Shown here: one piece after another, positions 39,500-64,000 of the stretch
Layout of the letters: each line of letters begins with the position of its first letter
How positions within the stretch are numbered: the first letter of the stretch is position 1
Origin: Oceanispirochaeta crateris
Lineage (GTDB): Bacteria > Spirochaetota > Spirochaetia > DSM-2461
Assembly: GCF_008329965.1 (NCBI RefSeq)
Contig: NZ_CP036150.1
Coordinates: 310,001 to 374,000, forward strand
Reading direction: 5' to 3'
DNA: 64,000 nt
Notes under the pieces: model-generated
What the model was told of the DNA's origin: nothing
Databases searched by the model: none
What the model saw: the letters and a program-made list of their open reading frames with translations, nothing else
Translations under genes and position numbers: made by a program

Positions 39500-39529
39500 T
39501 TGACATATAATGACTATTGAATACATAAT
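39500..39529 (+). promoter_or_regulatory. Sigma-70-type promoter of GH38-ABC-sulfatase operon
   Basis: A perfect TTGACA (39500-39505), an 18-base spacer and CATAAT (39524-39529). The predicted start of transcription is about 25 bases before the GTG start codon. Confidence 0.7.
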
Positions 39530-39560
39530 ATATATAACCTATAAAAATCTTGGAGATATT

Positions 39561-42044
39561 GTGAATAAAATCCATTTGGTAGGTAATGCCCATCTAGATC
39601 CTGTCTGGTTGTGGCGATGGCAGGAAGGTTATGCTGAGGTTAAGGCTACTTTTCGATCTGCCCTGGATCGTATGAAGGAATTTCCAGATTTCATTTTTAC
39701 ATGCGCCGGCGGAGCCTATTACAAATGGGTTGAAGAAAATGATCCTGCCATGTTTGAAGAGATTGTCATACGGGTCAATGAGAAGCGGTGGGTTCCTGTT
39801 GGAGGTTGGTGGATTCAGCCGGACTGCAATATTCCCTGTGGTGAGTCATTTATTCGTCAGGGGCTTATAGGGCAGCGGTACTTGCTTGAAAAATTCGGAT
39901 TCATTTCTGATGTTGGTTATAATGTCGATTCTTTTGGACATGATGGCATGCTGCCTCAAATTCTTGCGAAGTCAGGATTGGTAAATTATGTGTTTATGCG
40001 TCCTGATGTCAAAGAAAACGATGAGATTCCCTCTGTTCTCTTCCAATGGGAGAGTCCGGATGGATCCCAGGTCTGTTCTTTCAGAATCCCTGTTAGTTAT
40101 TCAGATTACATCGGGAGCACCAGGAACTGTTATGAAGAAAAACTTAGAATGGCCGCCGAGGAAGTCTCCCGCTTAGATATGGATCTCATGGAATTTTATG
40201 GTGTTGGGAATCATGGGGGAGGACCCACAGTCCGAACGATTAAGACCCTGCAAAAGGTGGGCGAGGAAATCGGAGATAAGGCTCAAATACTTTTCAGTAC
40301 ACCCTCAACATATTTTCATCAAATGAAGAAATCTAAACCGTCTTTAGAGGTCTATTCTTCGAGTCTCCGTCAGCATGCTCCCGGTTGTTATTCCAATCTT
40401 CTGTCTATTAAGAGGGGTAATCGTCAGGGTGAAAATGCCCTCTTGGCGGCGGAACGATTTTCTGTCTTATCCGGATGGCTCAGCGATCATGTGTTTCCGT
40501 CTGAGAGTTTACAAAGAGGGTGGGAAGGACTTCTGTTTAACCAATTTCATGACTTGTTGGGTGGCTGCAGCATTGAGAGAGCCTATCAGGATGCTGCTGC
40601 TTTGCATGGAGAAGTTTCGACAATTGCTTCAAGGGAAGAGAATATGGCTCTGCAGAAAATATCCTGGAAGATTGATACCTGGTGGATTAAAAAAGCAATG
40701 GGTAAAGACAAGCACTGGCAATCCTGGGAGCAGGATGATTTTGGTATTCCCGTGGTTGTATTTAATCCTCATTCATGGGAGTACAATGGCTACGTCACTA
40801 ATAAGATTTGCTGTTCCCGTGTCGAGGATGAGTCCGGACAGTTTGATCCGCATCAGATTATCCGGGGGGCATATAACAATAACAAGGATGAAAAGTGGGC
40901 CACTCTTTTTCCTGTTTCAATCCCCCCTCTGGGATACCGTGTTTACAGGCTTTATTTGACAAAGGAAAATCCGGAAATTAAGTCCTATGTCAATTCCATG
41001 AACATCACACAGCATTCTATTGAGAATCAGTACCTTGTGTTGAAATTTAATCCTGAAACAGGTTCTGTTTCCTCTCTGATCCGTAAAGAAACAGGGTTTG
41101 AATATATTTCGGGTGAAGCGTCTCTGGGTCTGGTTATTGATGATTCTCATTGTGATACCTGGGGCCATGGAGAGGACCGTTTTGATCTTGTAGAAGGCCG
41201 TTTTGGTCAGCCCGAATTTTCCATTATTGAAGAAGGTCCTCTGAGGTGCTGTCTCAGGGTTGTCACCAAGTATGGTCAATCTAAGATGGTTCTGGACTAT
41301 TATTTAACAGAGGATGGCCATGATATAACGGTGCGGGGCAGAGTCCTCTGGCTTGAAAAATACAGAATGCTGAAGATAGCATTTCCGGTGAAAATGATAA
41401 ATTCTGAATGCCTTCAGTCTCTCACTTTCGGATATGACAGAACGAATGCAGATGGCAAGGAAAAGGTTGGACAAAAATGGGTTGCACTTCGGGGGGAAGA
41501 TCCTCTAGGACGTATGGGAATCCTCGCCATAGCAAATGATGGTTTTCCTGCCCATTCATTTCAAGATGATGAGGTTAGGTTAACCATTTTACGCAGCCCG
41601 GAATATGCAGATCATATGGGAGAGAAGGATGGCTTTATTCCCAATATCGATATGGGCACTCATAGTTTTTCTTATGCTCTGATTCCATCTGACGCCGCAG
41701 AGGTTGAGAGTGAGTTCGTTTCCATATTCAGAGGGGCAGAGGAACTGAATCTTGATCCGACGGTCATTACGGAAACCTACCATAAAGGAACTTTACCCCT
41801 CATTCAGGATGGAATAGCGATTAGCAATGAAAATGTTTTTTCTTCGGCATTAAAAGAATCCTGGGACAAGTCGGGATACATCCTTCGTTGCAGTGAAATA
41901 TCTGGCCTTGTGTCTGATACAACCATAGAGTTGCCACTGTTGGGGGTACGGTTTGATGCCTCTTTTACTCCATTTGAGTTGAAGACATTCAAAATCTCCA
42001 AGAAGGATAAAAGAGTTCAGGAAGTGAACCTCATAGAATTATGA
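39561..42044 (+). CDS. GH38 alpha-mannosidase, short form (operon B)
   Basis: The protein has 827 residues. Catalytic marks: HLVGNAHLDPVWLWRW (zinc His-x-Asp), GYNVDSFGHDGMLPQI (nucleophile Asp) and FNQFHDLLGGCSI (zinc His). It is clearly paralogous to the GH38 at 30532-33042 over its whole length, sharing runs such as GYNVDSFGH and FYGVGNHGGGPT. It has no signal peptide, so it is cytoplasmic. The start is GTG at 39561, with GGAG about five bases upstream; the longer frame from 39510 overlaps the promoter and is rejected. It is the first gene of an operon with a sugar ABC importer and two sulfatases. Confidence 0.93.
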   Translation: MNKIHLVGNAHLDPVWLWRWQEGYAEVKATFRSALDRMKEFPDFIFTCAGGAYYKWVEENDPAMFEEIVIRVNEKRWVPVGGWWIQPDCNIPCGESFIRQGLIGQRYLLEKFGFISDVGYNVDSFGHDGMLPQILAKSGLVNYVFMRPDVKENDEIPSVLFQWESPDGSQVCSFRIPVSYSDYIGSTRNCYEEKLRMAAEEVSRLDMDLMEFYGVGNHGGGPTVRTIKTLQKVGEEIGDKAQILFSTPSTYFHQMKKSKPSLEVYSSSLRQHAPGCYSNLLSIKRGNRQGENALLAAERFSVLSGWLSDHVFPSESLQRGWEGLLFNQFHDLLGGCSIERAYQDAAALHGEVSTIASREENMALQKISWKIDTWWIKKAMGKDKHWQSWEQDDFGIPVVVFNPHSWEYNGYVTNKICCSRVEDESGQFDPHQIIRGAYNNNKDEKWATLFPVSIPPLGYRVYRLYLTKENPEIKSYVNSMNITQHSIENQYLVLKFNPETGSVSSLIRKETGFEYISGEASLGLVIDDSHCDTWGHGEDRFDLVEGRFGQPEFSIIEEGPLRCCLRVVTKYGQSKMVLDYYLTEDGHDITVRGRVLWLEKYRMLKIAFPVKMINSECLQSLTFGYDRTNADGKEKVGQKWVALRGEDPLGRMGILAIANDGFPAHSFQDDEVRLTILRSPEYADHMGEKDGFIPNIDMGTHSFSYALIPSDAAEVESEFVSIFRGAEELNLDPTVITETYHKGTLPLIQDGIAISNENVFSSALKESWDKSGYILRCSEISGLVSDTTIELPLLGVRFDASFTPFELKTFKISKKDKRVQEVNLIEL

Positions 42045-42083
42045 AGACTGGGGGATTCCCCCATAAAAAAACAGGAGGATTAT

Positions 42084-43433
42084 ATGAGAAAGATTTGTTT
42101 AGCGGTCATCTTGAGTATTTTGGTTATGCCGTTAATGGCCAATGGAACCAGTGAAGTTTCGACTGAGCCTCAGGCTACAGCACAGTTTGTCGGGAATGCC
42201 GCAGCTGACGAGGCTAAGACTGTGAATGGAACCATTGGATTTTGGAGTTCCATGGCAGCAACATCCGATGCTGAAAGAGCATTGGTTGAAGAGTTGTCCC
42301 TGGAGTGGGCGAACAAGCATCCTGACCAGAAGGTCGAGATTCAGGTCATTCCCGGAGATGCAATCAATCAGACTATGAGTAAATTGCTCACTGCAGCCGC
42401 AGCCGGCAATGCTCCCGATTTTGCTCAGGTGGACTCCTTCTGGATCGGGAATTTCATGGACGCCGGTGCTATCAAACCCATTGATCAATTTATTCCCGAA
42501 GGAGAGAGTGACCAGTTCTTCGATTTTACAAAGAAGGTCACACAGAGAAATGGAAAACAGTATGCTCTTTGGGCAGAGACAGACGCACGTCTGCTGTATT
42601 ACCGGAAAGATTTAATCAGTGAAGCTCCCCGTACATGGGGCGATGTGATTGAGACAGCCCTCATGGTTAAGGAAAAGAATGGTATTCATGGATATCTTAC
42701 TCCAGGAAAAGCAGAGGGTCTGACGAACGATTCATTCTTACCGTATTTCTGGGCTCAAGGTGGACAGTTGTTCGATCCTGATCAGGATTGGAAACCCGTG
42801 ATGGGAGAGGGGCAGAACCGGGATGCTATGATCAAGGCTTTCTCTTTCCTTGAAGAACTCATCGATACAGAAGCCATGCCCCGCGATATTGCCGGTATGA
42901 GTCATCCTCAATTGCTGGCAGAAGCAAGGGCTGATAATGTGGGTATGATGATCACCGGTTCCTGGGTTTTGCCACAGATGATGAGTCTCATCCCTGATGC
43001 TGAGAGCAAATGGGGCTACACCTCTTATCCTCAGGAAAAGGCAGATCAATATTCTAACACCAATGGTGGTTGGGCTTGGGTCTTCTTTTCTGAAGATGAT
43101 GCCAAAAGAAAAATAGCCTTCGACTTTGTTTGGGATACGGCGATTTCCAAATCTGCTATGTCCCGTCGATGTGCGGCCTATGGCTACCTTCCAACCAGAG
43201 CCGATGTATATGAGGATGACTTTTACAAAAATAACGTGTTCTTTGATTTTTTGAAAGAAGAACTCAATAATGGAAACAGCCGTCCTCCAACATCTTTGTA
43301 TCCAACAATTTCCACCTATATTCAGGAAATCGGAAGTGAAATCATTATTGGAGATATGGATCCGGAAACCGCTGTAGATGAAATCTACAAAAAGTCTATG
43401 GCGGCCTGGAAAGAAGCCCAAAGTCGAAAATAG
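42084..43433 (+). CDS. Sugar ABC transporter substrate-binding protein (operon B)
   Basis: The protein has 449 residues. A signal peptide ends VMPLMA before NGTSEVST, with no lipobox. It is a family 1 extracellular sugar-binding protein (GFWSSMAATSDAERALVEEL near the start of the body, TNGGWAWVFFSEDD near the C-terminal third). A perfect AGGAGG lies five bases before the ATG. Given the mannosidase before it and the sulfatases after it, the ligand is probably a sulfated mannose-containing oligosaccharide. That is an inference from context only. Confidence 0.9.
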   Translation: MRKICLAVILSILVMPLMANGTSEVSTEPQATAQFVGNAAADEAKTVNGTIGFWSSMAATSDAERALVEELSLEWANKHPDQKVEIQVIPGDAINQTMSKLLTAAAAGNAPDFAQVDSFWIGNFMDAGAIKPIDQFIPEGESDQFFDFTKKVTQRNGKQYALWAETDARLLYYRKDLISEAPRTWGDVIETALMVKEKNGIHGYLTPGKAEGLTNDSFLPYFWAQGGQLFDPDQDWKPVMGEGQNRDAMIKAFSFLEELIDTEAMPRDIAGMSHPQLLAEARADNVGMMITGSWVLPQMMSLIPDAESKWGYTSYPQEKADQYSNTNGGWAWVFFSEDDAKRKIAFDFVWDTAISKSAMSRRCAAYGYLPTRADVYEDDFYKNNVFFDFLKEELNNGNSRPPTSLYPTISTYIQEIGSEIIIGDMDPETAVDEIYKKSMAAWKEAQSRK

Positions 43434-43447
43434 TCTAGTATAAAGAG

Positions 43448-43475
43448 GGTCTGCAGCCTAGCTGCAGGCCTTTTT
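43448..43475 (+). terminator. Intrinsic terminator/attenuator behind binding-protein gene
   Basis: A 9-bp stem (GGTCTGCAG with CTGCAGGCC, one G-U pair), a five-base loop and a TTTTT tail, 14 bases past the stop of the binding protein. The permease ribosome site follows at once, so partial read-through is required. Confidence 0.8.
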
Positions 43476-43485
43476 GGGAGTTTTA

Positions 43486-44349
43486 ATGAGTAATCATCGT
43501 CACATAGGACTCGTATGGCTTGGTCCTATGGTAGTTTTTCTTTTTTGTTTCTATTTGTTTCCACTCGTAGATGTGATTCGTTTGAGTCTGACGAATACCA
43601 CTATCGGTCAGAACAATTTTAGCTATACCCTGAACTCCTTTATCAGTGTATTGACAGACAAGAATTTACCTCATATTTTGATGAGAACATTAACTTTTGT
43701 ATTCTTTTCTGTTTTCTTTCAATTGCTTCTTGGTCTTCTGATCGGTTTGCTATTGGAAATGGACCTTCATGGAGCTATTTTATTAAAAATGTCCATGATC
43801 TTTGCATGGGTTGTTCCCGGTATTATTACAGGAATCATATGGGAAATTTTATACAGCACCAGTGACTGGGGTCTGGTAAACAACATCATCCAATCAGTAA
43901 CAGGAAAAAAAATCCCCTTTCTCTTCAACGCTAGATGGGCCATTATCGGGGCGATCATTGCCAATGTCTGGCGGGGAACCGGTTTCAGCGGTCTGATGCA
44001 ATATGCCGCCCTCAAGGGTATCAATCCTCAACTGTATGAAGCAGCCCGCATTGATGGGGCAGGGCAGTGGAAAATCTTTTCCATGGTGACCCTTCCGCTT
44101 TTAAAACCCATGATGCTCATCAATATTGTACTGATCACCATTGGTACAATGAACACCTATGATTCCATCTGGGCTCTAACTCGGGGTGGCCCAGGGAGCG
44201 CTACGACTGTTCTGGCTCTACAAACTTACAGAGCAACATTCGAATATTTGAGTCTGGGACAAGGAGCCGTTTATGCCCTCCTGATGGTGCTCAGTTCCTC
44301 CCTTTTGACTCTTATGTATATGAAGCTTCTCGGCAGCAAGGAGTCTTGA
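43486..44349 (+). CDS. Sugar ABC transporter permease (MalF/UgpA type)
   Basis: The protein has 287 residues, six helices, and an EAA loop EAARIDGAGQWKIFSM then VTLPLLKPMM. It is a CUT1-group permease. The ATG at 43486 has GGGAG five bases upstream; a TTG at 43474 is also open but overlaps the terminator tail. Its stop is two bases before the ATG of the second permease. Confidence 0.9.
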   Translation: MSNHRHIGLVWLGPMVVFLFCFYLFPLVDVIRLSLTNTTIGQNNFSYTLNSFISVLTDKNLPHILMRTLTFVFFSVFFQLLLGLLIGLLLEMDLHGAILLKMSMIFAWVVPGIITGIIWEILYSTSDWGLVNNIIQSVTGKKIPFLFNARWAIIGAIIANVWRGTGFSGLMQYAALKGINPQLYEAARIDGAGQWKIFSMVTLPLLKPMMLINIVLITIGTMNTYDSIWALTRGGPGSATTVLALQTYRATFEYLSLGQGAVYALLMVLSSSLLTLMYMKLLGSKES

Positions 44350-44351
44350 TC

Positions 44352-45197
44352 ATGATTAAACAACGTCCTTTAGGACTCACTATCGTAGCCTACGCGGGGT
44401 ATGTTTTACTCTTTTTATTCTTTATTCTACCGATCTTAACGATCCTGTCTTTGTCTTTAAAGACTCCTGCAGAGATCTTTTCTCCAGCCACAATCAGGAA
44501 TCTGATACCAGAAAACCCGACACTGGATAATTATAAGACAGTGATGGTGAATGTGAGAATGAATGTCTACATCTTGAATTCCGCTAAGTTGGTCATCTCT
44601 ACTGTTCTTGGTGTTCTCATCATCAGTTCCCTTTCTTCCTATGCTCTATCGCGTTTTCATTTCCGTAAAAAGAATCTGATGATTCTGATCATTCTGATGT
44701 TTCAGATGATTTCACCCATAGTCATCGGGATACCTCTCTACTGGTACTATTCCAGGCTTCATCTGTTGGATACTTATTTTGGATTGGCTATTGCTTATAT
44801 TGCCATTCAGTTGCCTTTTGCAACCTTCCTTTTGAAAGGAGTCTTTGATGGAATCCCTGTGGAAATGGATGAAGCGGCTAAAATTGACGGTTGCAGCCGT
44901 CTGATGACTCTTATAAAGGTCATTCTTCCTGTTTCTCTGCCAGGGATCGCCAGTGCTATTATTTTTCTGAGCATCAACGCTTGGTCTCAGTTTGTTCTTC
45001 CTTTTTTCCTACTGAATAAGGATCAAATGTACCCAGTCTCGGTAGGTATTCTACTCAGCCAGGGGACATTTAAAGACATCAGCACTCACTATGTGGCCGC
45101 CGCGAGTATGATTGGTTTACTGCCTGCTGTTATCCTTGTTCTCTTTTTGCAAAAATTTATCTTAAAGGCTCTACTGTCGGGTGCGGTTAAGGGTTGA
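44352..45197 (+). CDS. Sugar ABC transporter permease (MalG/UgpE type)
   Basis: The protein has 281 residues, six helices, and an EAA loop DEAAKIDGCSRLMTLIK then VILPVSLPGIA. AAGGAG lies eight bases before the ATG at 44352. It pairs with the preceding permease. No ATPase follows; the next gene is a sulfatase that starts 13 bases after this stop. A shared ATPase elsewhere in the genome must energise the system. Confidence 0.9.
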   Translation: MIKQRPLGLTIVAYAGYVLLFLFFILPILTILSLSLKTPAEIFSPATIRNLIPENPTLDNYKTVMVNVRMNVYILNSAKLVISTVLGVLIISSLSSYALSRFHFRKKNLMILIILMFQMISPIVIGIPLYWYYSRLHLLDTYFGLAIAYIAIQLPFATFLLKGVFDGIPVEMDEAAKIDGCSRLMTLIKVILPVSLPGIASAIIFLSINAWSQFVLPFFLLNKDQMYPVSVGILLSQGTFKDISTHYVAAASMIGLLPAVILVLFLQKFILKALLSGAVKG

Positions 45198-45210
45198 AGG
45201 GGCCGTATAC

Positions 45211-46644
45211 ATGAATCAGCCGAATATTCTATTTATTTTAACGGATCAGCATAATGCTTCGATCAGTGGGTTCGAAGGGAACCGCATCATTGATACTCCC
45301 TCCCTGGATGGCCTGGCCTCCCAGGGAATGCAGTTTGGAAAGGCATATTGTCAGTCACCTCTCTGCGTTCCCAGCCGCAGCTCTCTGCTTACAGGGCGTT
45401 ATTGCCGGAATATTAATGTCTATGATAATCAGGACATACTGGATACGGCTTATGACACCATCCCGGGTACCTTTGCTGCGGCGGGATATTCTACGGCTCT
45501 GGTGGGTAAGGCTCATTTCAATGGAGAGCAGTATCATGGATATCAATATCGCCCTTATGGAGATATTTTTGGTCAGGGGCATCAACCGGATCCCCGGCGT
45601 GTACCAGAAAAAGGAGATGCCGGTCTGGGAGATATTCTATACCAGGCCGGCCCCTCCCAGATTCCTCTCCCTCTGACACAAACTGAAATTTGCACTCATG
45701 AATCTGTAAAATGGCTTCAATCACATGTATCACTACACCCGGATCAGCCTTTTTTTCTCAGTGTTCACTATGATAAACCCCATTTTCCTATCAACCCGCC
45801 ACCTTCTCTTTATGAGAAGTATCGCGATCTAGTTCAATTGCCTCCGCACTGGCGCCATGGCCTTCATGGCGATTCACATTTAAAGAAGCTCTCTCCCTTT
45901 GTCCGAGAAAATTTTATCTGTGAGGGGTCCTATCAAGTGCCAGAGGAGACTCACCTCAATTGTTTGGCTGCCTATTACGGCTGTATTGAATGGGTGGATA
46001 CCAATATTGGCCGGCTTTTAGAATCGCTCGACTATTTAGGGCTGTCGGACAATACAATTGTTGTCTACAGTTCCGACCATGGGGACATGGCGTCCTATCA
46101 TGGAAGCTGGCAGAAGATGGTCTTTTATGATCACTCCTCCAGGGTTCCCCTTATTATGAAATATCCTGGAATCATACCAGAGGCAGAAGTCTGTCTTGAT
46201 CCTGTTGGTTTGATTGACCTCTTTCCGACGTTCTGTGGTATGGCCAATCTGACGATTCCCGAAGGCTTAGACGGTATTAATCTTGCTCCCCACTTCTCGG
46301 GAGAACTCATTGGGAGAGATCGAATCTATGGTGAGTCAGTTTTGATTCATAAGCCTCAATTTGCCGGTGCCATGGTCAGAACCAATGACTGGAAGTGTTG
46401 TTACTATCTGGATGGTTCGGTGGAATTGTATGATATGGAAAACGATCCGGAAGAAGAAAACAATTTAGCAATTGAAGAGAGCAGCACAGCGGAAGAACTC
46501 GTGGAGGACATAAAACAATTCTGGAATCCCGAAGAACAAATATTCCGATATAACAAGAATCCTAAGTCTCCCCGGGAGAAACACTTTTATCCCTATTCTA
46601 ATCAGTATTTTGCAAATGGAGGTTGGTTTGATGCCCGTCCCTAA
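45211..46644 (+). CDS. Formylglycine-dependent sulfatase, first
   Basis: The protein has 477 residues of the S1 sulfatase family. It begins NILFILTDQHN (metal-binding Asp), with the modification motif CVPSRSSLLTGR, whose Cys is converted to formylglycine, and YSSDHGDM (second metal site). It has no signal peptide, so it should cleave sulfate esters in the cytoplasm. The start at 45211 has AAGGGG eight bases upstream; an in-frame frame from 45181 overlaps the permease end. It follows the ABC permease by 13 bases and overlaps the second sulfatase gene by 14 bases. The maturase (anSME or FGE) is not in this window. Confidence 0.92.
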   Translation: MNQPNILFILTDQHNASISGFEGNRIIDTPSLDGLASQGMQFGKAYCQSPLCVPSRSSLLTGRYCRNINVYDNQDILDTAYDTIPGTFAAAGYSTALVGKAHFNGEQYHGYQYRPYGDIFGQGHQPDPRRVPEKGDAGLGDILYQAGPSQIPLPLTQTEICTHESVKWLQSHVSLHPDQPFFLSVHYDKPHFPINPPPSLYEKYRDLVQLPPHWRHGLHGDSHLKKLSPFVRENFICEGSYQVPEETHLNCLAAYYGCIEWVDTNIGRLLESLDYLGLSDNTIVVYSSDHGDMASYHGSWQKMVFYDHSSRVPLIMKYPGIIPEAEVCLDPVGLIDLFPTFCGMANLTIPEGLDGINLAPHFSGELIGRDRIYGESVLIHKPQFAGAMVRTNDWKCCYYLDGSVELYDMENDPEEENNLAIEESSTAEELVEDIKQFWNPEEQIFRYNKNPKSPREKHFYPYSNQYFANGGWFDARP

Positions 46645-48169
46645 TGAAAAACCAAATATACTGCTTATAATGGCCGATCAGCTAACGCCTTTTATGACAG
46701 GCTGCTATGGAAACTCTGAAGTTCTCACTCCCAACCTGGATCGGCTGACTGCCAAAGGTGTTCGATTTGATGCGGCCTACACTCCCTGTCCTTTATGCTC
46801 TCCAGCCAGAGCCAGTATGATGACCGGGCGTTATGCTTCGGATATAGGCTGTTATGATAACGGCAGTGTTTTTTCAAGTGAAGAGCCCACATTTGCTCAT
46901 TGTCTCTCGGCGTCCGGCTATGACACGGTATTGTCTGGGAAAATGCACTTTATCGGTTCCGATCAGCTCCATGGTTTTGGAAAGCGGCTTACAACAGATA
47001 TCTATCCTGCAGAATACCAATTGATGCCCCGGTTTGTAGATGAATCACGGCACATCACCCAAAGTGATGCCTGGGGAAATGCTGCCAATTACAATGCCCA
47101 GACCGCCGGAGCACGCCCCTGGAGCGTCGGTATAAACTACGATGAAGAGACTCATTTCAGAGCCAGGGAATATCTTTATGGACAAGCAGGAATGAACTGG
47201 AATGATCAGGCAGTGAAAGATCCTTTCTTCTTGTGTGTTTCCTACCATCATCCACACGATCCTTTTCATCCCTCCAGTGAAGACTGGGAACTCTACGAGG
47301 GAAAAAATATCACCCTTCCGGAAATTACCAGGGAAATGGAAGAGAACTACTCCACTCTGGACAAGTGGCTGAATAACGGTTTTCACCGTAGTGATGTCTT
47401 CCCTATTAAAGGTCAGAAAAACCTGTATGCCCTTCGGAGGGCTTACAGCGCTTTGGTAAGCTACATAGACCGGAAGGTAGGAGAACTCCTGGCAGATCTG
47501 GAGGCTACAGGACTGGACAAAAATACGGTTGTTCTATTTACAAGTGATCATGGGGACATGCTGGGTGAAAAGGGTATGGTGCAAAAACGATGTTTCTATG
47601 AATGGTCTTCACGTATTCCATTGATACTGAAGCGTCCGGATGAACCCGTACCGGGAAGTACTGTTTCTACGCCTGTTTCGCTCCTCGATTTAGGACCTAC
47701 CATCCTGGACTTGGCTGGAGTTGCCATTGATGAGGGATATTGTCCTGACGGGCATAGTATCCTCCCGGTGATCCAGGATGAAGAAACCTATTTAGAACGG
47801 GAGGTCATCAGTGAATCCCATGGAGAAGGGGTTATGTGTCCTACATTTATGATCAGGAGAGGGGATTATAAACTGACCTATATTCATAATCACGAAAGGC
47901 AGCTCTTCCATTTACCCTCAGACCCCAGTGAATTACATAACCTTGCCGGGTCTGTAGAGTACTCCGAAATAGAGTCTTCTTTGTTGTCTCGGCTCATGGA
48001 GAGGTTTGATTCTGACAAGATAGAAAAAGACTTTTTTGAGAGTCTTAAAAAGAGACGACTCATTCAAAAAGCCCTCGGTATAAATAAAACACATTGGGAC
48101 TTTCAGCCAACTTTTAATGCGTCCAAGCGCTATCATCGAGTCAATACGGCTGTATCTGATGAGTCTTGA
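46631..48169 (+). CDS. Formylglycine-dependent sulfatase, second
   Basis: The protein has 512 residues of the S1 family, with NILLIMADQLTPFMTG at the start, the modification motif CSPARASMMTGRY and FTSDHGDMLGEKGM. The C-S-P-A-R form and the following segments resemble choline-sulfatase-like members, but the substrate is likely a sulfated sugar given the operon. It has no signal peptide. GGAGG lies eight bases before the ATG at 46631, inside the end of the first sulfatase gene, so translation is coupled. It is the last gene of operon B. Confidence 0.92.
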   Translation: MPVPNEKPNILLIMADQLTPFMTGCYGNSEVLTPNLDRLTAKGVRFDAAYTPCPLCSPARASMMTGRYASDIGCYDNGSVFSSEEPTFAHCLSASGYDTVLSGKMHFIGSDQLHGFGKRLTTDIYPAEYQLMPRFVDESRHITQSDAWGNAANYNAQTAGARPWSVGINYDEETHFRAREYLYGQAGMNWNDQAVKDPFFLCVSYHHPHDPFHPSSEDWELYEGKNITLPEITREMEENYSTLDKWLNNGFHRSDVFPIKGQKNLYALRRAYSALVSYIDRKVGELLADLEATGLDKNTVVLFTSDHGDMLGEKGMVQKRCFYEWSSRIPLILKRPDEPVPGSTVSTPVSLLDLGPTILDLAGVAIDEGYCPDGHSILPVIQDEETYLEREVISESHGEGVMCPTFMIRRGDYKLTYIHNHERQLFHLPSDPSELHNLAGSVEYSEIESSLLSRLMERFDSDKIEKDFFESLKKRRLIQKALGINKTHWDFQPTFNASKRYHRVNTAVSDES

Positions 48170-56472: not shown

Positions 56473-57570
56473 TTGAAAGTTGATGAAATAAACCATAAAA
56501 TAAAACTAATTCGTACAATGATGAAAGATGAGGCAATGGAGGCCGTTTATATAAAAAAACAGGCTAACTATTCTTGGTTAACCGCAGGAGGTTTAAACCA
56601 GGTTGGAATCGGTTCCGAAATGGGAGCTTTCGGATTGCTCTTGACAATGACCTCACTATATTGTGTCGCAACTAATATTGAGGCTACTCGAGCTAAAGTA
56701 GAAGAAAGACTGGAAGAGAAGGGTTTCGAGTTTTTGATTTTCTCATGGGATGATGAAAAAGGTGAAAGTCGATCCATCTCATCCATTGTATCACCAAAAT
56801 CTATAGGCTCTGATTGTGGCATGGGGAAGGATCTTAACAGACAGATTCAAAAGCTCCGTTTCTCTTTGGTTGATTCTGAAATTGAGCGATATCGACTTTT
56901 AGGTGATCAGGTTTCTAGGTCTTTGGAAGAAGTGCTTTTTCGCGTTAAACCCGGTGATAAAGAATGTTCGGTCATAGGCAGACTTACAGAATCTCTTTGG
57001 GATCACCGAATTGATTATATCACGATATTTTGTGCTTCAGATCATAGAATTACAAATTTCCGTCATCCAATTGCAACAGAAAAGAAGATTGAAAAAAGAG
57101 TTATGTTGGGAGTCAATGCTCGAAAAGGAGGGTTGATAGTCTGTTTGACTCGCTTTCTTCAATTTGGGCCAGTTGATTCTCAGTTACATAAGCAGTATCG
57201 GGATAATGTGGAAATTGACTGTCGTATGATTGAGGCCACGGTTCCGGGAACACCTGTAAATGAGATTTTGAAGCTTGCTGTTAGAGAATACAGCCGTTTA
57301 GGGTATGAAAGTGAGTATAAAAATCATCATCAGGGGGGATCTATAGGATATCAGGGAAGGGATTATCGAGTGAATTTTGATTCTCCCTATCTTGTTCAGA
57401 ATAACCAGGGGTTCTGCTGGAATCCTTCCATCTCTGGAACTAAGAGTGAAGATACTATTTTAGCTACAAACGGGACACCTGAATTTATTACTCACCCCTG
57501 CAGTTTTCCGACAATCACAGTAGAAACAGAAACAGATAGATATATAAGACCGGATATCCTTTCGGTGTAA
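56473..57570 (+). CDS. M24-fold (creatinase/aminopeptidase P-like) protein with degenerate metal site
   Basis: The protein has 365 residues: an N-terminal creatinase-N-like domain, then the pita-bread M24 domain from about 130. Aligned by motif to aminopeptidase P, the two Asp ligands are Asn215 (GVNARKG) and Cys224 (IVCLTRF). The His is kept (NHHQGGSIGY, about 286). The first Glu is Asn317 (CWNPSI) and the last Glu is kept (KSEDTIL, 326). With three of five ligands lost it should not be a normal dinuclear metallopeptidase. It may act like creatinase, which uses the same fold without metal, or may only bind a substrate. The start is TTG with GGGAGG eight bases before it. It leads the operon with the TTT transporter, so it may act on the imported compound. 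Confidence 0.75.
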   Translation: MKVDEINHKIKLIRTMMKDEAMEAVYIKKQANYSWLTAGGLNQVGIGSEMGAFGLLLTMTSLYCVATNIEATRAKVEERLEEKGFEFLIFSWDDEKGESRSISSIVSPKSIGSDCGMGKDLNRQIQKLRFSLVDSEIERYRLLGDQVSRSLEEVLFRVKPGDKECSVIGRLTESLWDHRIDYITIFCASDHRITNFRHPIATEKKIEKRVMLGVNARKGGLIVCLTRFLQFGPVDSQLHKQYRDNVEIDCRMIEATVPGTPVNEILKLAVREYSRLGYESEYKNHHQGGSIGYQGRDYRVNFDSPYLVQNNQGFCWNPSISGTKSEDTILATNGTPEFITHPCSFPTITVETETDRYIRPDILSV

Positions 57571-57599
57571 CCGAAATTAAATATTAAGAGGAGTTGTAA

Positions 57600-58589
57600 A
57601 TGAAAAGGTTGACTTTAGGTATTGTGCTCACAATTATCGTAATGAGTATGTCGGTTCTCCCTGTTTATGCTAATGGCAGTGCAGAGAGCGATGTCTACCC
57701 GTCCCGAGAGATTGAGTTGATGGTACCGTGGGGAGTTGGTGGTGCTACCGATATTGCTTTCAGGACATTTATGTCTGTACTTCCAAAGTATTTGGGAACC
57801 TCCGTGGTTGTTGTGAATATACCTGGTGGAGGAGCTGTACCCGGTTACGCTGAAGCATTGGGCTACGATAATGATGGCTATTCTATGGTAGCATGGGCTA
57901 CTCCATCTATTACCAAAACGCACATGACAAAAACACCTTATGATTATAAGAGTTTTGAACCTGTTATTAATCTGGTTTCCGCACCTTGTTGGATACTTGT
58001 TCCTAGTAATTCTCCCTATATGACACTGAATGACCTTATAGATGCTGCAAAAGCTGCCCCTGGCCAGATAACACTTGGAAATGCAGGTGCAGGTGGTGGA
58101 ACACATATGATTGGGCTAGCTTTTCAACAGGAAGCCGGTGTTGAGTTTAATCATATTCCCCACAGTGGTGGTGGACCGGCTGTTATAGCTGGTGTAGGTG
58201 GACATGTCGATGCTATTATCGTTGGACCTCCTGAAGGTGTTCCTCAAATTGCCGGTGGTCAGTTAAGAGCTTTAGCCGTAACTCACCCCAAAAGGCTTGA
58301 CGCCTTTCCAGATGTACCCACAGCTTTGGAACAAGGTATAGATTTTACACTGGGGCAGTGGAGAGGTGTTGCTGTTCCTGTCGGAACAGATCCTGATATT
58401 AAAAAACATATCCACGATGCATTTAAAGCCACAATGGAAGATCCTGACTTTTTAGTACTTGCTGGAAAAGCTGGCTTGCTTCTTGACTATATTGGTCTGG
58501 ATGATTTTGATAAATGGGTCGAGAGTCAGAACGCACTGTATGAAAAAATTGTAAAGACTAATAAAATGGGTGATCGCTATCAGTACTGA
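57600..58589 (+). CDS. tctC: Tripartite tricarboxylate transporter binding protein, TctC
   Basis: The protein has 329 residues. A signal peptide ends VLPVYA before [10 protein letters not shown], without a lipobox. The Bug/TctC family core is visible: [14 protein letters not shown] near the start of the mature part, [16 protein letters not shown], and [20 protein letters not shown]. It binds a carboxylated solute in the periplasm. GAGGAG lies six bases before the ATG. It is followed by a terminator-like stem and then TctB and TctA. Confidence 0.93.
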
Positions 58590-58606
58590 TAATTAATAAT
58601 ACTGAT

Positions 58607-58643
58607 CCCTGAAATTTTGAAATAAAATTTCAGGGGTTTTTTT
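58607..58643 (+). terminator. Intrinsic terminator/attenuator between tctC and tctB
   Basis: A 12-bp perfect stem, CCCTGAAATTTT (58607-58618) with AAAATTTCAGGG (58624-58635), and a run of seven T (58637-58643). It lies 17 bases past the tctC stop and just before the tctB ribosome site. Confidence 0.9.
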
Positions 58644-58652
58644 GAGGATAAT

Positions 58653-59117
58653 ATGAATAAGAATAATGATGTAATCTCTGGAGCTACTTTTGTTACTCTA
58701 TCCATGCTGATATTTGCAGTTTCATTTCAAATTCCAGCTAGTCAACATGGGCTATCTCCTGCTGCATTTCCTCGCTTTATTGCTGCCTGTATCTTTATTC
58801 TGGGTATTATACAAGTTAAAGCTTCGATGAAAGGGGGAGGGGAGCAGCACAAAGCCCATGATGAGAGTAATGAGAGTATAAAGTCTTATGTATTGAGAGT
58901 CCTTGTTTTTCTGGTTTCCTGTTTCTTATACATTAATTCTTTAAAAATATTCGGATTTGTCATTGTAACACCCTTACTTGTTGCTGTCACAATGTATCTG
59001 TTTAATGAAAGGAAATGGCTTCGAATAGCCTCTGTGTCAATCTTGACAACAGTGCTACTCTATTCCATTTTTCGCATAATTTTTCGTGTACCATTACCAC
59101 GAAGTTTATTCTGGTAG
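58653..59117 (+). CDS. tctB: Tripartite tricarboxylate transporter small permease, TctB
   Basis: The protein has 154 residues with four helices, the TctB layout. The stretch GLSPAAFPRFIAACIFILG is typical of the first helices. GAGGA lies five bases upstream of the ATG. It is followed nine bases later by TctA, its channel partner. Confidence 0.88.
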   Translation: MNKNNDVISGATFVTLSMLIFAVSFQIPASQHGLSPAAFPRFIAACIFILGIIQVKASMKGGGEQHKAHDESNESIKSYVLRVLVFLVSCFLYINSLKIFGFVIVTPLLVAVTMYLFNERKWLRIASVSILTTVLLYSIFRIIFRVPLPRSLFW

Positions 59118-59125
59118 GTTTATAA

Positions 59126-60598
59126 ATGGAATATTTAATTCAAGGATTAATATACGTATTTACTCCCATTCATTTTCTTTCTTTGTTTCTGGGTGTCACT
59201 GGAGGAGTGATCGTTGGGGCTATTCCTGGTTTGACAGGCTCTGTCGGTATCATTCTAGCTCTTCCATTTATATATAAAATGGATCCGGGAGCTTCACTTA
59301 TTATGCTTTCGGGGATGTTTTGTGGTTCAATTTATGGTGGTTCAATATCAGCCATTCTAATCTCGACACCGGGAACTCCTTCTGCTGCTGCAACTGTGTT
59401 GGATGGATATCCTCTTGCTATGAAAGGGGAAGCTGGTAAAGCAATTAGTGTGGCTACCATAGCTTCCTGCAGTGGTGGGATTATATCTACTATCTGTCTG
59501 GTACTCATTGCACCCCAACTTGCTAAATTTGCTCTTCGTTTCGGTCCCGTGGAGTATTTTGCTCTTATGATTTTTGGGCTGACCATCATAGGAAGCGTTT
59601 CAGGATCCTCCCTTACAAAAGGGATACTCTCAGGCCTCCTGGGGCTTGCTATTTCTATAGTTGGTATAGATCCAACCTATGGGATTCAGAGATACACTTT
59701 CGGCAGCATCAAGTTATTATCCGGCTTTCCAATGTTACCTGTCTTGATCGGATTGTTTGCCATTTCACAGATTCTAACAGAGCTAGTAGATGTCAATAAG
59801 CCTAAGATTACTTTTGATCAAAAAATAAAAGGTTCTGTTCTCTCATTAAAAGAGTTAAAGAACCTTTTTAAGGTCATCATTCCATCCTCCTTTCTTGGAA
59901 CATTTATAGGAATCATTCCTGGAACAGGAGGGGCAATAGCTTCTTTTCTAGCTTACAATGAAGCTCGGCGTTTTTCTAAAACGCCTAATGAATTTGGTAA
60001 AGGGCATCTTCATGGAATTGCCGCTCCAGAAGCTGCAAATAATGGGACAACTGGAGGAGCTATGGTACCACTTCTCACCTTAGGAGTTCCTGGCGACGCA
60101 GTTACATCTGTCATGCTTGGAGCTATGATGCTCATTGGTGTTCAGCCAGGACCTCTTTTGTTTAAAGAGAGTCCTCAGATTGTCAATAATCTTTTCATTG
60201 GTCTTATGTTTGCTCAGATCCTACTGCTAATAATTGGATTAGCTGGTATCAGAGTTTTTCCTCGAATCTTGAAAATTAAGAAATCTATTCTTTTTCCCGT
60301 GATTCTGATACTCTGTTTCATTGGTTCATATACATTGGGAAACAGTTCATATAATCTTATTGTTGCTCTAGTGTTTGGGATCATCGGATTTTTTCTAAAA
60401 AAGAATGGCTATGCTACAGCACCGGTTATTCTTGGGGTTATTCTTGGGCCTATTGCTGAAAGAGAACTTTGCCGTGCGTTGACAATCAGTCATGGCAATT
60501 GGGGTACATTATTTCATTCTTATATTGCAATTTTCTTTTATATTGTTTCTATTTTATCCATTATTTATTCTATAAGAAGTAAAAAAAAGGAGATCTGA
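59126..60598 (+). CDS. tctA: Tripartite tricarboxylate transporter large permease, TctA
   Basis: The protein has 490 residues with about 11-12 helices. TctA landmarks are VIVGAIPGLTGSVGIILALP and IIPGTGGAIASFLAYNEARR, together with AAPEAANNGTTGGAMVPLLT. It forms the channel of the TTT importer in the inner membrane. The stop is one base before the ATG of the oxidoreductase gene, so the operon continues into it. Confidence 0.94.
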   Translation: MEYLIQGLIYVFTPIHFLSLFLGVTGGVIVGAIPGLTGSVGIILALPFIYKMDPGASLIMLSGMFCGSIYGGSISAILISTPGTPSAAATVLDGYPLAMKGEAGKAISVATIASCSGGIISTICLVLIAPQLAKFALRFGPVEYFALMIFGLTIIGSVSGSSLTKGILSGLLGLAISIVGIDPTYGIQRYTFGSIKLLSGFPMLPVLIGLFAISQILTELVDVNKPKITFDQKIKGSVLSLKELKNLFKVIIPSSFLGTFIGIIPGTGGAIASFLAYNEARRFSKTPNEFGKGHLHGIAAPEAANNGTTGGAMVPLLTLGVPGDAVTSVMLGAMMLIGVQPGPLLFKESPQIVNNLFIGLMFAQILLLIIGLAGIRVFPRILKIKKSILFPVILILCFIGSYTLGNSSYNLIVALVFGIIGFFLKKNGYATAPVILGVILGPIAERELCRALTISHGNWGTLFHSYIAIFFYIVSILSIIYSIRSKKKEI

Positions 60599-60599
60599 T

Positions 60600-61628
60600 A
60601 TGAAGGGTTTAGGAATTGTTGGGGCTGGATTGATTTCAGAAATACATGCACACGCCATTAAAGATACAAAGAACAGCCGTCTGGTTGCTGTATGTGATGT
60701 CAATTTGCAAAGAGCGCAGGAGTTTGCAAAACTCTTTAAGTGTAAGGCCTATAGCAGTGTGACTGAAATGCTGAAAGATTCACAGGTCGAGGTGGTTACA
60801 ATCTGTACACCCTCTGGTTTTCATCTTGATCCTGCTATGGAAGTCATTAACAGTGGCCGTCCTCTTTTGATAGAGAAACCAATTGAGATCAATCTGGAAA
60901 GATGTGATGCCATTCTTGAGTTGGCAGATAAGAAAAACGTCCTTGTTTCAGGGGTCTTCCAATCCAGATTCCATCCGGCATCTTTAGCGATCCGCCACGC
61001 CATGGAGCAGGAACGATTTGGAAGAGTGACTTTGGGAGACGCATATGTTAAGTGGTACCGTGCAAAAGAGTATTATACAGGATGGAAGGGAACTAAAAAA
61101 ATTGATGGTGGCGGAGCTTTAATAAATCAGTCCATTCACGCTATCGATCTATTGCAGTGGTTTATGGGACCCGTCAAGAGTGTACAGGCAAAAACATCCA
61201 CATTGCTCCATGATATCGAAGTAGAAGACACTGCTGTTGCCTTTCTGGAGTTTGAGTCTGGAGCTCTGGGTGTGATCGAAGGAACCACATCTGTTTATCC
61301 CGGTTATATGAAGCGGATTGAAATATCCGGGAGTAAGGGGACGGCTATCATGGAAGAGGAAGAAATTAAGGCATGGGATTTTCTCGAAAAAAGGGATGAA
61401 GATAAGGCCATTTTAGCCGAGTGCAGCGGTAGCAGTTCCAGCGGTGGTGCTGCCGATCCGGGTGCTATAAATTACATCGGTCATAAAAAACAGATTGAAA
61501 ATTTTATAGAATCTGTTGAAACAAATAAAGCTCCTTTTATCACCGGAGAAGATGCGAGGAAGTCCTTGGCCATTATCATGGCAATTTACCAAAGTAGTTC
61601 TACTGGAAAAGCGGTAGAGCTTGAGTGA
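60600..61628 (+). CDS. Gfo/Idh/MocA-family oxidoreductase
   Basis: The protein has 342 residues. The NAD(P)-binding Rossmann motif GIVGAGLISEIHAHAI is at the N-terminus. The catalytic Lys is in LLIEKPIEINL. The second conserved block GGGALINQSIHAIDLLQW holds the His and Asp of the family. It oxidises or reduces a sugar, polyol or sugar-acid-like compound, probably the solute brought in by the TTT system. AAGGAG lies seven bases before the ATG. The substrate is not known. Confidence 0.9.
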   Translation: MKGLGIVGAGLISEIHAHAIKDTKNSRLVAVCDVNLQRAQEFAKLFKCKAYSSVTEMLKDSQVEVVTICTPSGFHLDPAMEVINSGRPLLIEKPIEINLERCDAILELADKKNVLVSGVFQSRFHPASLAIRHAMEQERFGRVTLGDAYVKWYRAKEYYTGWKGTKKIDGGGALINQSIHAIDLLQWFMGPVKSVQAKTSTLLHDIEVEDTAVAFLEFESGALGVIEGTTSVYPGYMKRIEISGSKGTAIMEEEEIKAWDFLEKRDEDKAILAECSGSSSSGGAADPGAINYIGHKKQIENFIESVETNKAPFITGEDARKSLAIIMAIYQSSSTGKAVELE

Positions 61629-61709
61629 CTGTGATATACAAGGAATACGAAAAGACATTATTGCTCTTAGACTTAAATTTTGTATATTATTATCATATGG
61701 ATGTTTATG

Positions 61710-62414
61710 ATGAGTATTAATGGAAAATATAATAGGCTATCAGATGTCGTCGTAGACAAAATTAAGGTTCTTGTATGCAATGGTACTTTGTCTCCTGGCG
61801 ACCAATTGCCCAGTGAGCTTAAATTAATAGAAATGTTCGATGTTAGCCGAACAACAATAAGAGAGGCGATAAATCGCTTGGTTGAGCAGAATATTGTCGA
61901 GATTATTAGGGGGAAAGGGACTTATGTGGCAATCACTCCAGGTGTACAAAAGGATCCCTTTGGGTTTGAGTTTATCGATCCTGATCTTCTTTTTAGCTCA
62001 CTTATAGATGCTCGAGTCGGTCTAGAATCAGGTGTTGCTAAAATGGCTGCAGAAAATGCACTTGAAAGCGATATAATAAAGATCAGTCAAAATAATGTAG
62101 ATTTAAGATCTGAAATTCAGGATCATCATGTCCGCATAGGTTCGGAAATTGATTTTCATCTGGCCATAGCAACGGCCACCCACAATGATGTAATTATTCG
62201 GGTTGTACCTATAATTCTGAATTCTATATTTGTAATATACAGAGAACGGGTACCAACTGAGTCAGATCATTGGTCCGCATTAGAAGAACATGAAGAAATT
62301 TTAAATGCTATCAAAAAAAGAGATTCAGATAGAGCCTACACGGCGATGTATACACATCTGGTAAACAGTAAAATGAGGATTTTGAATCGAAATATTACTG
62401 AGAATCAGGAGTGA
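61710..62414 (+). CDS. GntR-family regulator with FCD sensor domain (FadR-like)
   Basis: The protein has about 234 residues. The winged helix-turn-helix is LPSELKLIEMFDVSRTTIRE then AINRLVEQNIVEIIRGKGTY. The FCD ligand domain follows, with the metal-ligand pattern EIDFHLAIATATHND and the later His in EEHEEILNAI. It should repress or activate the preceding TTT operon when a carboxylated ligand binds. Several starts are open (TTG 61680, ATG 61701, 61707, 61710). The ATG at 61710 is preferred since a GGATG lies about seven bases before it. It overlaps the convergent MFS-HEAT gene by 10 bases. Confidence 0.88.
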   Translation: MSINGKYNRLSDVVVDKIKVLVCNGTLSPGDQLPSELKLIEMFDVSRTTIREAINRLVEQNIVEIIRGKGTYVAITPGVQKDPFGFEFIDPDLLFSSLIDARVGLESGVAKMAAENALESDIIKISQNNVDLRSEIQDHHVRIGSEIDFHLAIATATHNDVIIRVVPIILNSIFVIYRERVPTESDHWSALEEHEEILNAIKKRDSDRAYTAMYTHLVNSKMRILNRNITENQE

Positions 62415-64000
62415 ACTATAATCTGGTACGTGAAGTACACAGCTGCCAGAGCATCATCATATTCGGTTCCGTTGTATGCAGCCTTGGAGCTCTTCTCCGA
62501 TCTCTCCACTAAAGCCTGTTGTAGGTTTTTCAAAGGATCAGATGAACTGGTATCTCCGGACTTGCAGTTTTCCAGTGACTGACGGCAGAACTCCCATATG
62601 GAAACCCAATTGCCTTTGCGAAACCACGTTTCCAGGGCCTTGTGGTTTTCATAGAAAAAATGCAGGTCTCTCGTCTGTTCCAGAAAATCGCTCAGTCCTT
62701 CACCTCTTTGAAGATTCTTTGAGCTGTAGATAGTTGAAAGAGGCGGTTTAAACTGGAGCAAGTCGGAGCTGAGGGAATAGTAGGTCTGTCTGAACTTCCC
62801 TTGGATAAAGTGGTCTGCATCTATAAATAGCTCCCTGTAGACCTGTCCTTCGGGGTCCATATTATTCAAGGCAATAAGATAATTGATTTTATCCCATACC
62901 TGATTCGCTTCTTTGGATAAGGTGCGAATCTTTTCGAGGGATTGGGTGTGTCCAATTCTGCTCAGCGATTTCGCGGCATTTGATTTTATAGAAGGTTCTG
63001 TATGATCAAGAAGATCCAACAGAAGATTCTCTACTTTCTTTCCAGAGTAGGCTCCGAGGGCAAAGATTGCATTAATCTGATGATATGAACCCGCATCAGA
63101 AGCCTCCTGTATCAATTCCGGCAAAAGTTCCCTACGAGGGTGATTAAAAAGTGACTTGATCACTTCTTCTTTTTCGGAGGAAAGGGGAGACGCAATGATG
63201 GCGCGCATTTCTTCTGTTGCTATGGATGCATCATTTTGACTGATAGATAAGAGAACAGTCCTTTTTTTGACAGGATCTTCAGTTGACTTTAATTTTCCTA
63301 TATCAATATAAGCCTTCATTCCATCTATGGAAAATAGTATGGCTGCTGTTTCTTTGGTCGAGAGGCTTCCCCTATCGATGAGTTTAAAACTGAGGAAAAT
63401 CAGGGTTAAGCTGAGCATGATAGCAAATATGAAGAGAAAACTGTATGAGTTGGATAGGATCATTTCTGTATTCTGGCCTGAATCAATTAAGACTCCACCA
63501 ATGATACCGCTGAAAAATGAAAAGAATGCTGTTACAAAGTTTGTCATGGCATTGTAGCCGAAAGATTCGTTTTCCGGCATGGTGTTGACCAGAACCCGGG
63601 TGCCGAGAACATGTGTTGAGAATAGAAAAAAGTTTGTAACAAAACCAAGAACATAATAAATGTAGGCAGGCAGTTCATTGCCTTGGGAGACGGGCAGGAG
63701 CATCCACAAAACGAAGGTTATTGCCAGTAAGACTGTGACCCCCATGAGCAGAGGTCTACTTCCCAAGCGATCTGAGAATGATCTTGCAAAGAACCCAGAA
63801 CAAATCTGGGCTAGGGTCATGAACATGGCATAGAGGAATACAAAATTGGATGTAAATCCTGCTTCCTTTCTCATGAAAACAATGATAAGACTGTTGATAA
63901 CTAAAATTGATACGGTAATCCACATTAAAATTAAGGGATATCGTCTATCCTTGTTGACCATGGACTCCTTGAGAATGATAAATATATTTCGTCCTTTTTC
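62405..64000 (-). CDS. MFS-like membrane half fused to HEAT-repeat domain, 5' end cut by window edge
   Basis: The frame is open from the stop at 62405 to base 64000 without interruption, giving 531 residues. An ATG at 63961 exists, but the frame continues before it (KGRNIFIILKES), and an AAGGAG lies only three bases from it. The first 215 residues hold six helices that look like the second half of an MFS protein (ARSFSDRLGSRPLLMG), so the first half is probably outside the window. The remaining 300 residues are helical repeats of HEAT type (DAGSYHQINAIFALGAYSG, LLDLLDHTEPSIKSNAAKSL). Fusions of MFS carriers to HEAT repeats occur in some bacteria but the role is unknown. Confidence 0.7.
   Translation of the reverse strand, partial: EKGRNIFIILKESMVNKDRRYPLILMWITVSILVINSLIIVFMRKEAGFTSNFVFLYAMFMTLAQICSGFFARSFSDRLGSRPLLMGVTVLLAITFVLWMLLPVSQGNELPAYIYYVLGFVTNFFLFSTHVLGTRVLVNTMPENESFGYNAMTNFVTAFFSFFSGIIGGVLIDSGQNTEMILSNSYSFLFIFAIMLSLTLIFLSFKLIDRGSLSTKETAAILFSIDGMKAYIDIGKLKSTEDPVKKRTVLLSISQNDASIATEEMRAIIASPLSSEKEEVIKSLFNHPRRELLPELIQEASDAGSYHQINAIFALGAYSGKKVENLLLDLLDHTEPSIKSNAAKSLSRIGHTQSLEKIRTLSKEANQVWDKINYLIALNNMDPEGQVYRELFIDADHFIQGKFRQTYYSLSSDLLQFKPPLSTIYSSKNLQRGEGLSDFLEQTRDLHFFYENHKALETWFRKGNWVSIWEFCRQSLENCKSGDTSSSDPLKNLQQALVERSEKSSKAAYNGTEYDDALAAVYFTYQIIVHS

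Follow-up and report, generated by a model that had tools for sequence, protein, structure and literature searches.

The operon in the Oceanispirochaeta crateris window

The window analysed here, 64,000 nucleotides of the forward strand of Oceanispirochaeta crateris contig NZ_CP036150.1 (positions 310,001 to 374,000), contains an operon of six same-strand genes in the order M24-TctC-TctB-TctA-Gfo/Idh-GntR/FadR, separated by gaps of 29, 63, 8, 1 and 51 bases, and Pfam assigned a name to each of the six proteins. This work concerns the first of them (56473-57570, + strand), which has a TTG start with a GGGAGG ribosome site upstream and codes for a 365-residue protein of the M24 fold with no metal site, for which we propose the activity of a sugar (uronate) 1-epimerase, i.e. 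a mutarotase. It is followed on the same strand by a complete importer of the tripartite tricarboxylate transporter (TTT) type, made up of the periplasmic solute-binding protein TctC (57600-58589; PF03401, 171 bits), the small membrane subunit TctB (58653-59117; PF07331) and the large membrane subunit TctA (59126-60598; PF01970, 509 bits), and then by a Gfo/Idh/MocA dehydrogenase recognised by its Pfam match (60600-61628). The order and coordinates of these five genes in the initial annotation agreed with the open reading frames (ORFs) and Pfam matches, but it had omitted the final gene of the run, a GntR/FadR-type regulator (61680-62414, + strand), which we counted in the operon because it lies on the same strand and starts only 51 bases after Gfo/Idh.

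A strong hairpin, consisting of a 16-pair stem-loop with a T run after it, was found between tctC and tctB (58604-58638, + strand). It is a possible partial terminator or mRNA stabiliser, and may lift the level of the binding protein above that of the membrane subunits. Promoter-like sites numbered 20 against 19.6 expected by chance, i.e. they were not in excess.

Replacement of the metal ligands across the family

The window protein scored 29.7 bits with the Peptidase_M24 profile (PF00557, cut-off 23), so it belongs to M24 by profile, and 21.5 bits with the PepQ equivalog NF040821, whose cut-off is 630. Its nearest solved structures were archaeal prolidases (Pyrococcus 1pv9 and 1wy2; profile E 9e-23), with no close structural relative. 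When it was aligned to 1wy2 and 1pv9, the prolidase ligands D/D/H/E/E corresponded to G213 (codon 57109-57111; all codons on the + strand), C224 (57142-57144), H285 (57325-57327), N317 (57421-57423) and E326 (57448-57450), and the five-ligand D, D, H, E, E set of the M24 metallopeptidases is therefore incomplete in the window protein. The first prolidase Asp faced Gly213 in one alignment and a gap beside 213 in the other, and Asn215 was paired in both with the prolidase Gly located two residues past the first ligand Asp. Two further conserved prolidase histidines, of the second shell, were replaced by Gly289 and Arg296 (57358-57360), and the PHG-type His was retained as His198 (57064-57066). 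The initial annotation had correctly recognised the loss of three of the five ligands, as well as Cys224 and Asn317 among the replacements, but its Asn215 was two residues off the equivalent position (Gly213); of the residues it described as retained, the last Glu (326) was right and the His placed at about 286 was His285.

The same replacements were found throughout an alignment of 76 members (77 unique matches, one of which was removed by a filter for short or identical stretches). Asp at 213, Asp at 224 or Glu at 317 was seen in none of the 76, and position 224 was S, A, N, T, C or P across the family. His198, Glu326, Gly289, Arg73, Trp35 and Trp92 were invariant (76/76), and Arg296 and Lys324 (74/76 each), Asn317 (71/76) and His285 (67/76) were retained in most members. 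The metal site is lost and the residues replacing it are conserved, far beyond what chance would give. Because D, D and E were lost in all 76 members while His198, Glu326 and others were conserved, the M24 group is a conserved family and not one in decay, with the pattern of an enzyme that has a new active site. One divergent member, located in an ATP-binding cassette (ABC) transporter locus (L061:8344-9486), has Ala in place of Arg296 and Phe in place of Asn317, and possibly has another activity.

These data bear on two alternatives. The Pfam match and the database names, since the annotated members are mostly labelled 'M24 family metallopeptidase' or 'aminopeptidase P family', would agree with a protein that is still a peptidase with its ligands shifted. 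Ligands shifted but present, which the initial annotation had named as a result that would speak against it, were not seen (no Asp or Glu at 213, 224 or 317 in 76 members), and the replacement of two more prolidase histidines makes peptidase activity extremely improbable. A pseudoenzyme, acting as a non-catalytic sensor or chaperone of sugar operons, would be compatible with the disappearance of the ancestral metal site; it is very unlikely, because the former active-site residues are among the best conserved and because many of the operons already have a regulator of their own, such as ROK or GntR.

Relatives with 45-50% identity were found in one Spirochaetota metagenome-assembled genome (MAG) and in one Bacillota MAG with the same gene set (in a different order in the latter), additional ones in several other genomes of the class of the window organism, and more distant ones (24-30% identity) on plasmids from Thermus, Deinococcus, Pantoea, cyanobacteria and haloarchaea. 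The member on plasmid pVV8 of Thermus thermophilus HB8 is WP_014677649.1. Profile searches of 296 genomes belonging to the same phylum as the window gave 14 with the family, and a draw of 398 genomes from the Bacillota MAG's phylum gave 54 at the threshold used; no relative was found in the viral contigs scanned. None of the 25 searched genomes of the same taxonomic family (G001-G025) had the M24 gene, and yet it occurs in other families of the class and in Bacillota, suggesting horizontal transfer of the M24 cassette.

Sugar pathways around the M24 gene and displacement of GalM

The neighbourhoods examined comprised 62 loci of Spirochaetota and Bacillota-group genomes (the Bacillota-group part being 40 loci of the 56 matches listed, taken best first with a few gaps) and 13 annotated plasmid loci, and neighbours were labelled from the Pfam or NCBIfam matches of one or two members per cluster. 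Same-strand partners within six genes, among the 62 loci, were Gfo/Idh (20), ROK (17), TctC and TctA (14 each), FucI/SftI-like and IolB-type isomerases (11 each), UxaB and UxaA (9 each), and GalE and GalK (4 each). M24 was accompanied by both TctA and Gfo/Idh in 11 of them, so that the M24-TctCBA-Gfo set named in the initial annotation does recur.

The family is linked to many sugar pathways, its neighbours including galKTE, xylAB, FucI/SftI-type isomerases, hexuronate enzymes, GH31 and GH4 glycosidases and arabinofuranosidases. In the Thermus plasmids the M24 gene was located downstream of xylA-xylB, in an operon with a xylose-binding-protein ABC importer; in other plasmids it lay beside arabinofuranosidase or sugar-transport genes (haloarchaea), near L-fucose isomerase (Deinococcus) and next to a GMC oxidoreductase gene (Pantoea). 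It was found beside galK with galE and/or galT in L114, L122, L128 and L137, and this galactose linkage arises in two separate parts of the M24 tree. Of the M24 loci, 48 spanned at least 14 kb, and sugar families were present in 40 of these versus 5 of 40 random 15-kb stretches from overlapping genomes scored with the same profiles; two or more of the families were present in 24/48 versus 0/40. The profiles had been built from the M24 loci themselves, which somewhat favours these loci in the count. The sharing of loci with so many different sugar pathways argues for a general step acting on free sugars.

Such a step was unfilled in several otherwise complete pathways. In L057 the gene order was DctQ, DctM-like, TauE-type exporter, reductase, SftI-like isomerase, GH31, M24, transaldolase-family protein and DctP. 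The reductase, of the 3-hydroxyisobutyrate dehydrogenase type, scored 138 bits to sulfolactaldehyde reductase (below the cut-off of 348), and the SftI-like isomerase scored 174 bits, short of its cut-off of 700. The GH31 protein reached 946 bits (above 553) to NF007746, a model that we take to be E. coli YihQ. Judged by its gene content, the locus resembles a sulfo-TAL pathway for sulfoquinovose, and the interconversion of anomers is the step there that has no assigned gene. M24 was surrounded by GH31, class II aldolase, PfkB kinase and SftI-like isomerase genes in L113 and L136, and in these two loci, as in L057, the gal loci and the Thermus xyl operon, anomer interconversion is the unfilled step. 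The galM gene is often found in gal loci of the kind where M24 stands. In sulfoquinovose pathways, the passages cited from PMC9594981 and PMC5902678 assign the mutarotase slot to YihR or to the putative mutarotase SqvB/SftX; for SftX, the assay reported in an excerpt of PMC11968277 gave no mutarotase activity.

The pattern expected of a functional analogue that replaces GalM was found when galactokinase-bearing genomes were compared. The 398-genome draw, which was used as the basis for displacement instead of a first sample of 50+50 genomes, included 54 genomes with M24, 98 with GalM and 118 with galactokinase. Among these 118, GalM was present in 6 of 19 genomes with M24 versus 75 of 99 without it (Fisher p 3e-4, a value that is optimistic because the genomes are related and their kinship was uncorrected), so M24 shows a negative association with GalM in galactokinase-bearing genomes. 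This count retained four weak or partial M24 matches (G515, G531, G694 and G727), and when they were excluded the figures were 5/17 versus 75/99. The first sample had given 5/17 versus 12/12 among galactokinase-bearing genomes, and the full draw weakened the control to 75/99. M24 was located at 5 kb or less from galK in five of the 19 genomes (G370, G506, G522, G538 and G542). Neither the 62 neighbourhoods nor the 13 plasmid loci contained a GalM-like ORF; the GalM search spanned 143 loci, and both of its matches were stretches chosen because they hold GalM.

The neighbourhoods also weigh on two hydrolytic or lytic alternatives. In one, the protein would hydrolyse small conjugates such as glycosides, glycosylamines and sugar esters or lactones, freeing the sugar after import in a metal-free, creatinase-like manner. 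The fold would allow this, as in creatinase itself, and glycosidase genes often adjoin M24. Such a conjugate hydrolase is nevertheless unlikely, since the Thermus operon with its xylose-binding-protein importer and xylA-xylB requires no glycosidase, GH31 is already present in L057 and L113, and no lactone arises in the galKTE or xylAB pathways. The catabolic role foreseen by the initial annotation is likely, because sugar-breakdown genes recur around the family, but the lyase or hydrolase that it proposed, which in the style of creatinase or DddP would attack a C-N, C-S or C-O bond in an imported acid, seems improbable. The shared fold family and the adjoining carboxylate-type importer are in its favour; however, genes for amino, sulfonium or amidine catabolism are not recurrent near the family whereas sugar genes are, and DddP requires its metal ligands, according to the portion of PMC4108388 cited. 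C-N or C-S chemistry was rejected on this gene context.

A proposed mutarotase and its known counterparts

We consider, with a probability of roughly 0.55, that the family consists of metal-independent M24-fold aldose 1-epimerases that use a His and a Glu, acting in the window probably on an imported sugar acid, e.g. a hexuronate. We infer the mutarotase reaction from the conservation, the sugar-pathway linkage and the negative GalM association, and likewise infer how the individual residues act and which substrate is used in the window. M24-fold enzymes would have lost the two-metal peptidase site and turned into mutarotases. Each pathway-specific copy would open the ring of its free sugar, or sugar acid, and close it again, thereby converting the anomer that comes from the importer or glycosidase into the one required by the next isomerase, kinase or dehydrogenase. 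His198 and Glu326, which by homology to prolidase should face the old active site, would form the acid/base pair (general acid/base and general base, respectively) on the anomeric hydroxyl and the ring oxygen, while Arg296, Asn317, Lys324 and His285 would hold the sugar. A His as the acid and a Glu as the base have been proposed for the GalM-type mutarotases in the cited part of PMC5902678; no description of an M24-fold mutarotase appeared among the papers listed by searches of the open-licence PMC literature. There is an even chance that these proteins form one more class of aldose 1-epimerases, structurally unrelated to the others, which arose from M24 aminopeptidases by losing both metals, works in galactose, pentose, hexuronate and sulfoquinovose pathways and supplies the mutarotase step open in some sulfoglycolysis clusters.

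In the window, the TTT system would bring in a sugar acid, probably a hexuronate, whose anomers the M24 protein would equilibrate and which the Gfo/Idh enzyme would oxidise or reduce, with the GntR/FadR protein as the regulator. Our best guess for the substrate, held with less confidence than the general mutarotase role, is a hexuronate or a sugar acid like it, because L105 has the run TctC-TctB-TctA-M24-Gfo-IolB, because the window Gfo protein is 41-42% identical to its counterparts in hexuronate clusters L117 and L121, and because the excerpt cited from PMC13390454 describes a TTT importer that takes up unsaturated alginate oligosaccharides. The closest Gfo proteins were those of spirochaete TTT cassettes (49-55%), with 37-38% identity to Bacillota TTT cassettes and 22-25% to SftI-type clusters; the identity to hexuronate cluster L138 was also only 22%, which speaks against this substrate. 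A 500-residue protein with weak similarity to the lactate racemase N-domain was observed inside the TTT-M24 cassette in L049 (9297-10796) and L048.

The IolB-type isomerase was found beside UxaB/UxaA/UxaE in L117, L119, L121, L126, L131, L133, L134, L135 and L138, as well as inside the TTT cassette of L105. UxaC was not found in any of the 10 searched Bacillota-group genomes bearing M24-IolB clusters, and for this reason the IolB-type protein may be a candidate new uronate isomerase in these genomes. The same absence would favour M24 as an aldose-ketose isomerase standing in for UxaC in the M24-IolB-UxaB-UxaA-UxaE clusters. We regard this as improbable, a little more so than conjugate hydrolysis, since other M24 operons have their own isomerase (XylA, FucI/SftI-like), galKTE requires none, the window genome itself carries UxaC, and a better candidate stands next to it in the IolB-type protein, as KduI has been proposed to isomerise hexuronates (PMC3578941, in the passage cited).

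Several observations weigh against the mutarotase proposal. GalM coexists with M24 in 6 of the 19 galactokinase-bearing genomes (about 9 kb apart in G497), and 24 of the 99 without M24 also had no GalM, therefore a mutarotase is not obligatory for galactokinase genomes. The M24/GalM association was weak over all 398 genomes (7/54 versus 91/344, p 0.04) and absent from those without galactokinase (GalM in 1/35 versus 16/245). The RhaM mutarotase gene adjoins M24 in L054 and L055. In L115, L118 and L120, M24 lies amid bacillithiol-type genes (BshC, PIG-L deacetylase, glycosyltransferase) and phosphoglucomutase, a setting with no obvious fit to a mutarotase; no sugar operon was seen at the haloarchaeal Natrinema locus, and the scored sugar families were absent from 8 of the 48 large M24 loci. 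The neighbourhood counts are not phylogenetically independent, His285 is not universal, being absent from nine members, and the AlphaFold2 models (window, L001 and L002 sequences) reached mean pLDDT values of only 49.9 and 47.7.

Elsewhere in the window, 39510-48169 is a probable sulfated glycan locus, where a single run of genes encodes a GH38 alpha-mannosidase, components of a sugar ABC importer and two sulfatases, and the product of 62405-63961 combines HEAT repeats with a membrane portion of the MFS type.

'Peptidase' is probably the wrong annotation for a large set of proteins, because a widespread family without the metal site sits in many unrelated operons of sugar breakdown. If the sugar function is true, this class of annotations would be corrected, the sulfoglycolysis clusters without YihR would gain a mutarotase candidate, and there would be a further case in which a metallopeptidase fold had come to carry out acid/base chemistry on sugars without a metal.

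The family resembles prolidase/PepQ (MEROPS M24B; 1pv9, 1wy2) in its fold, as predicted from sequence, in the PHG-type His and in the last Glu, and differs from it throughout by the replacement of three of the five ligands and two further histidines. Creatinase is a metal-free M24 enzyme whose metal site was lost within the pita-bread fold; the family is alike in this loss, but its loci are for sugars and not for creatine or nitrogen. The GalM/YihR aldose 1-epimerases (PF01263) occupy the same slot in the gal and sulfoquinovose pathways, with a His/Glu acid/base mechanism proposed; the GalM fold differs from the M24 fold, and no GalM homology was detected in the window protein, which matched only PF00557 up to E 0.01. 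DddP, which has the M24 fold in common with creatinase, is also a non-peptidase of this fold, as is expected of the family, but it keeps six metal-binding residues whereas the family has lost ligand positions, a comparison made with the published description of DddP in the cited part of PMC4108388. Finally, SqvB/SftX (DUF4867), found in sulfo-TAL, sulfo-TK and sulfo-EMP2 clusters, holds the same pathway position in the excerpt of PMC9594981 cited and belongs to an unrelated family.

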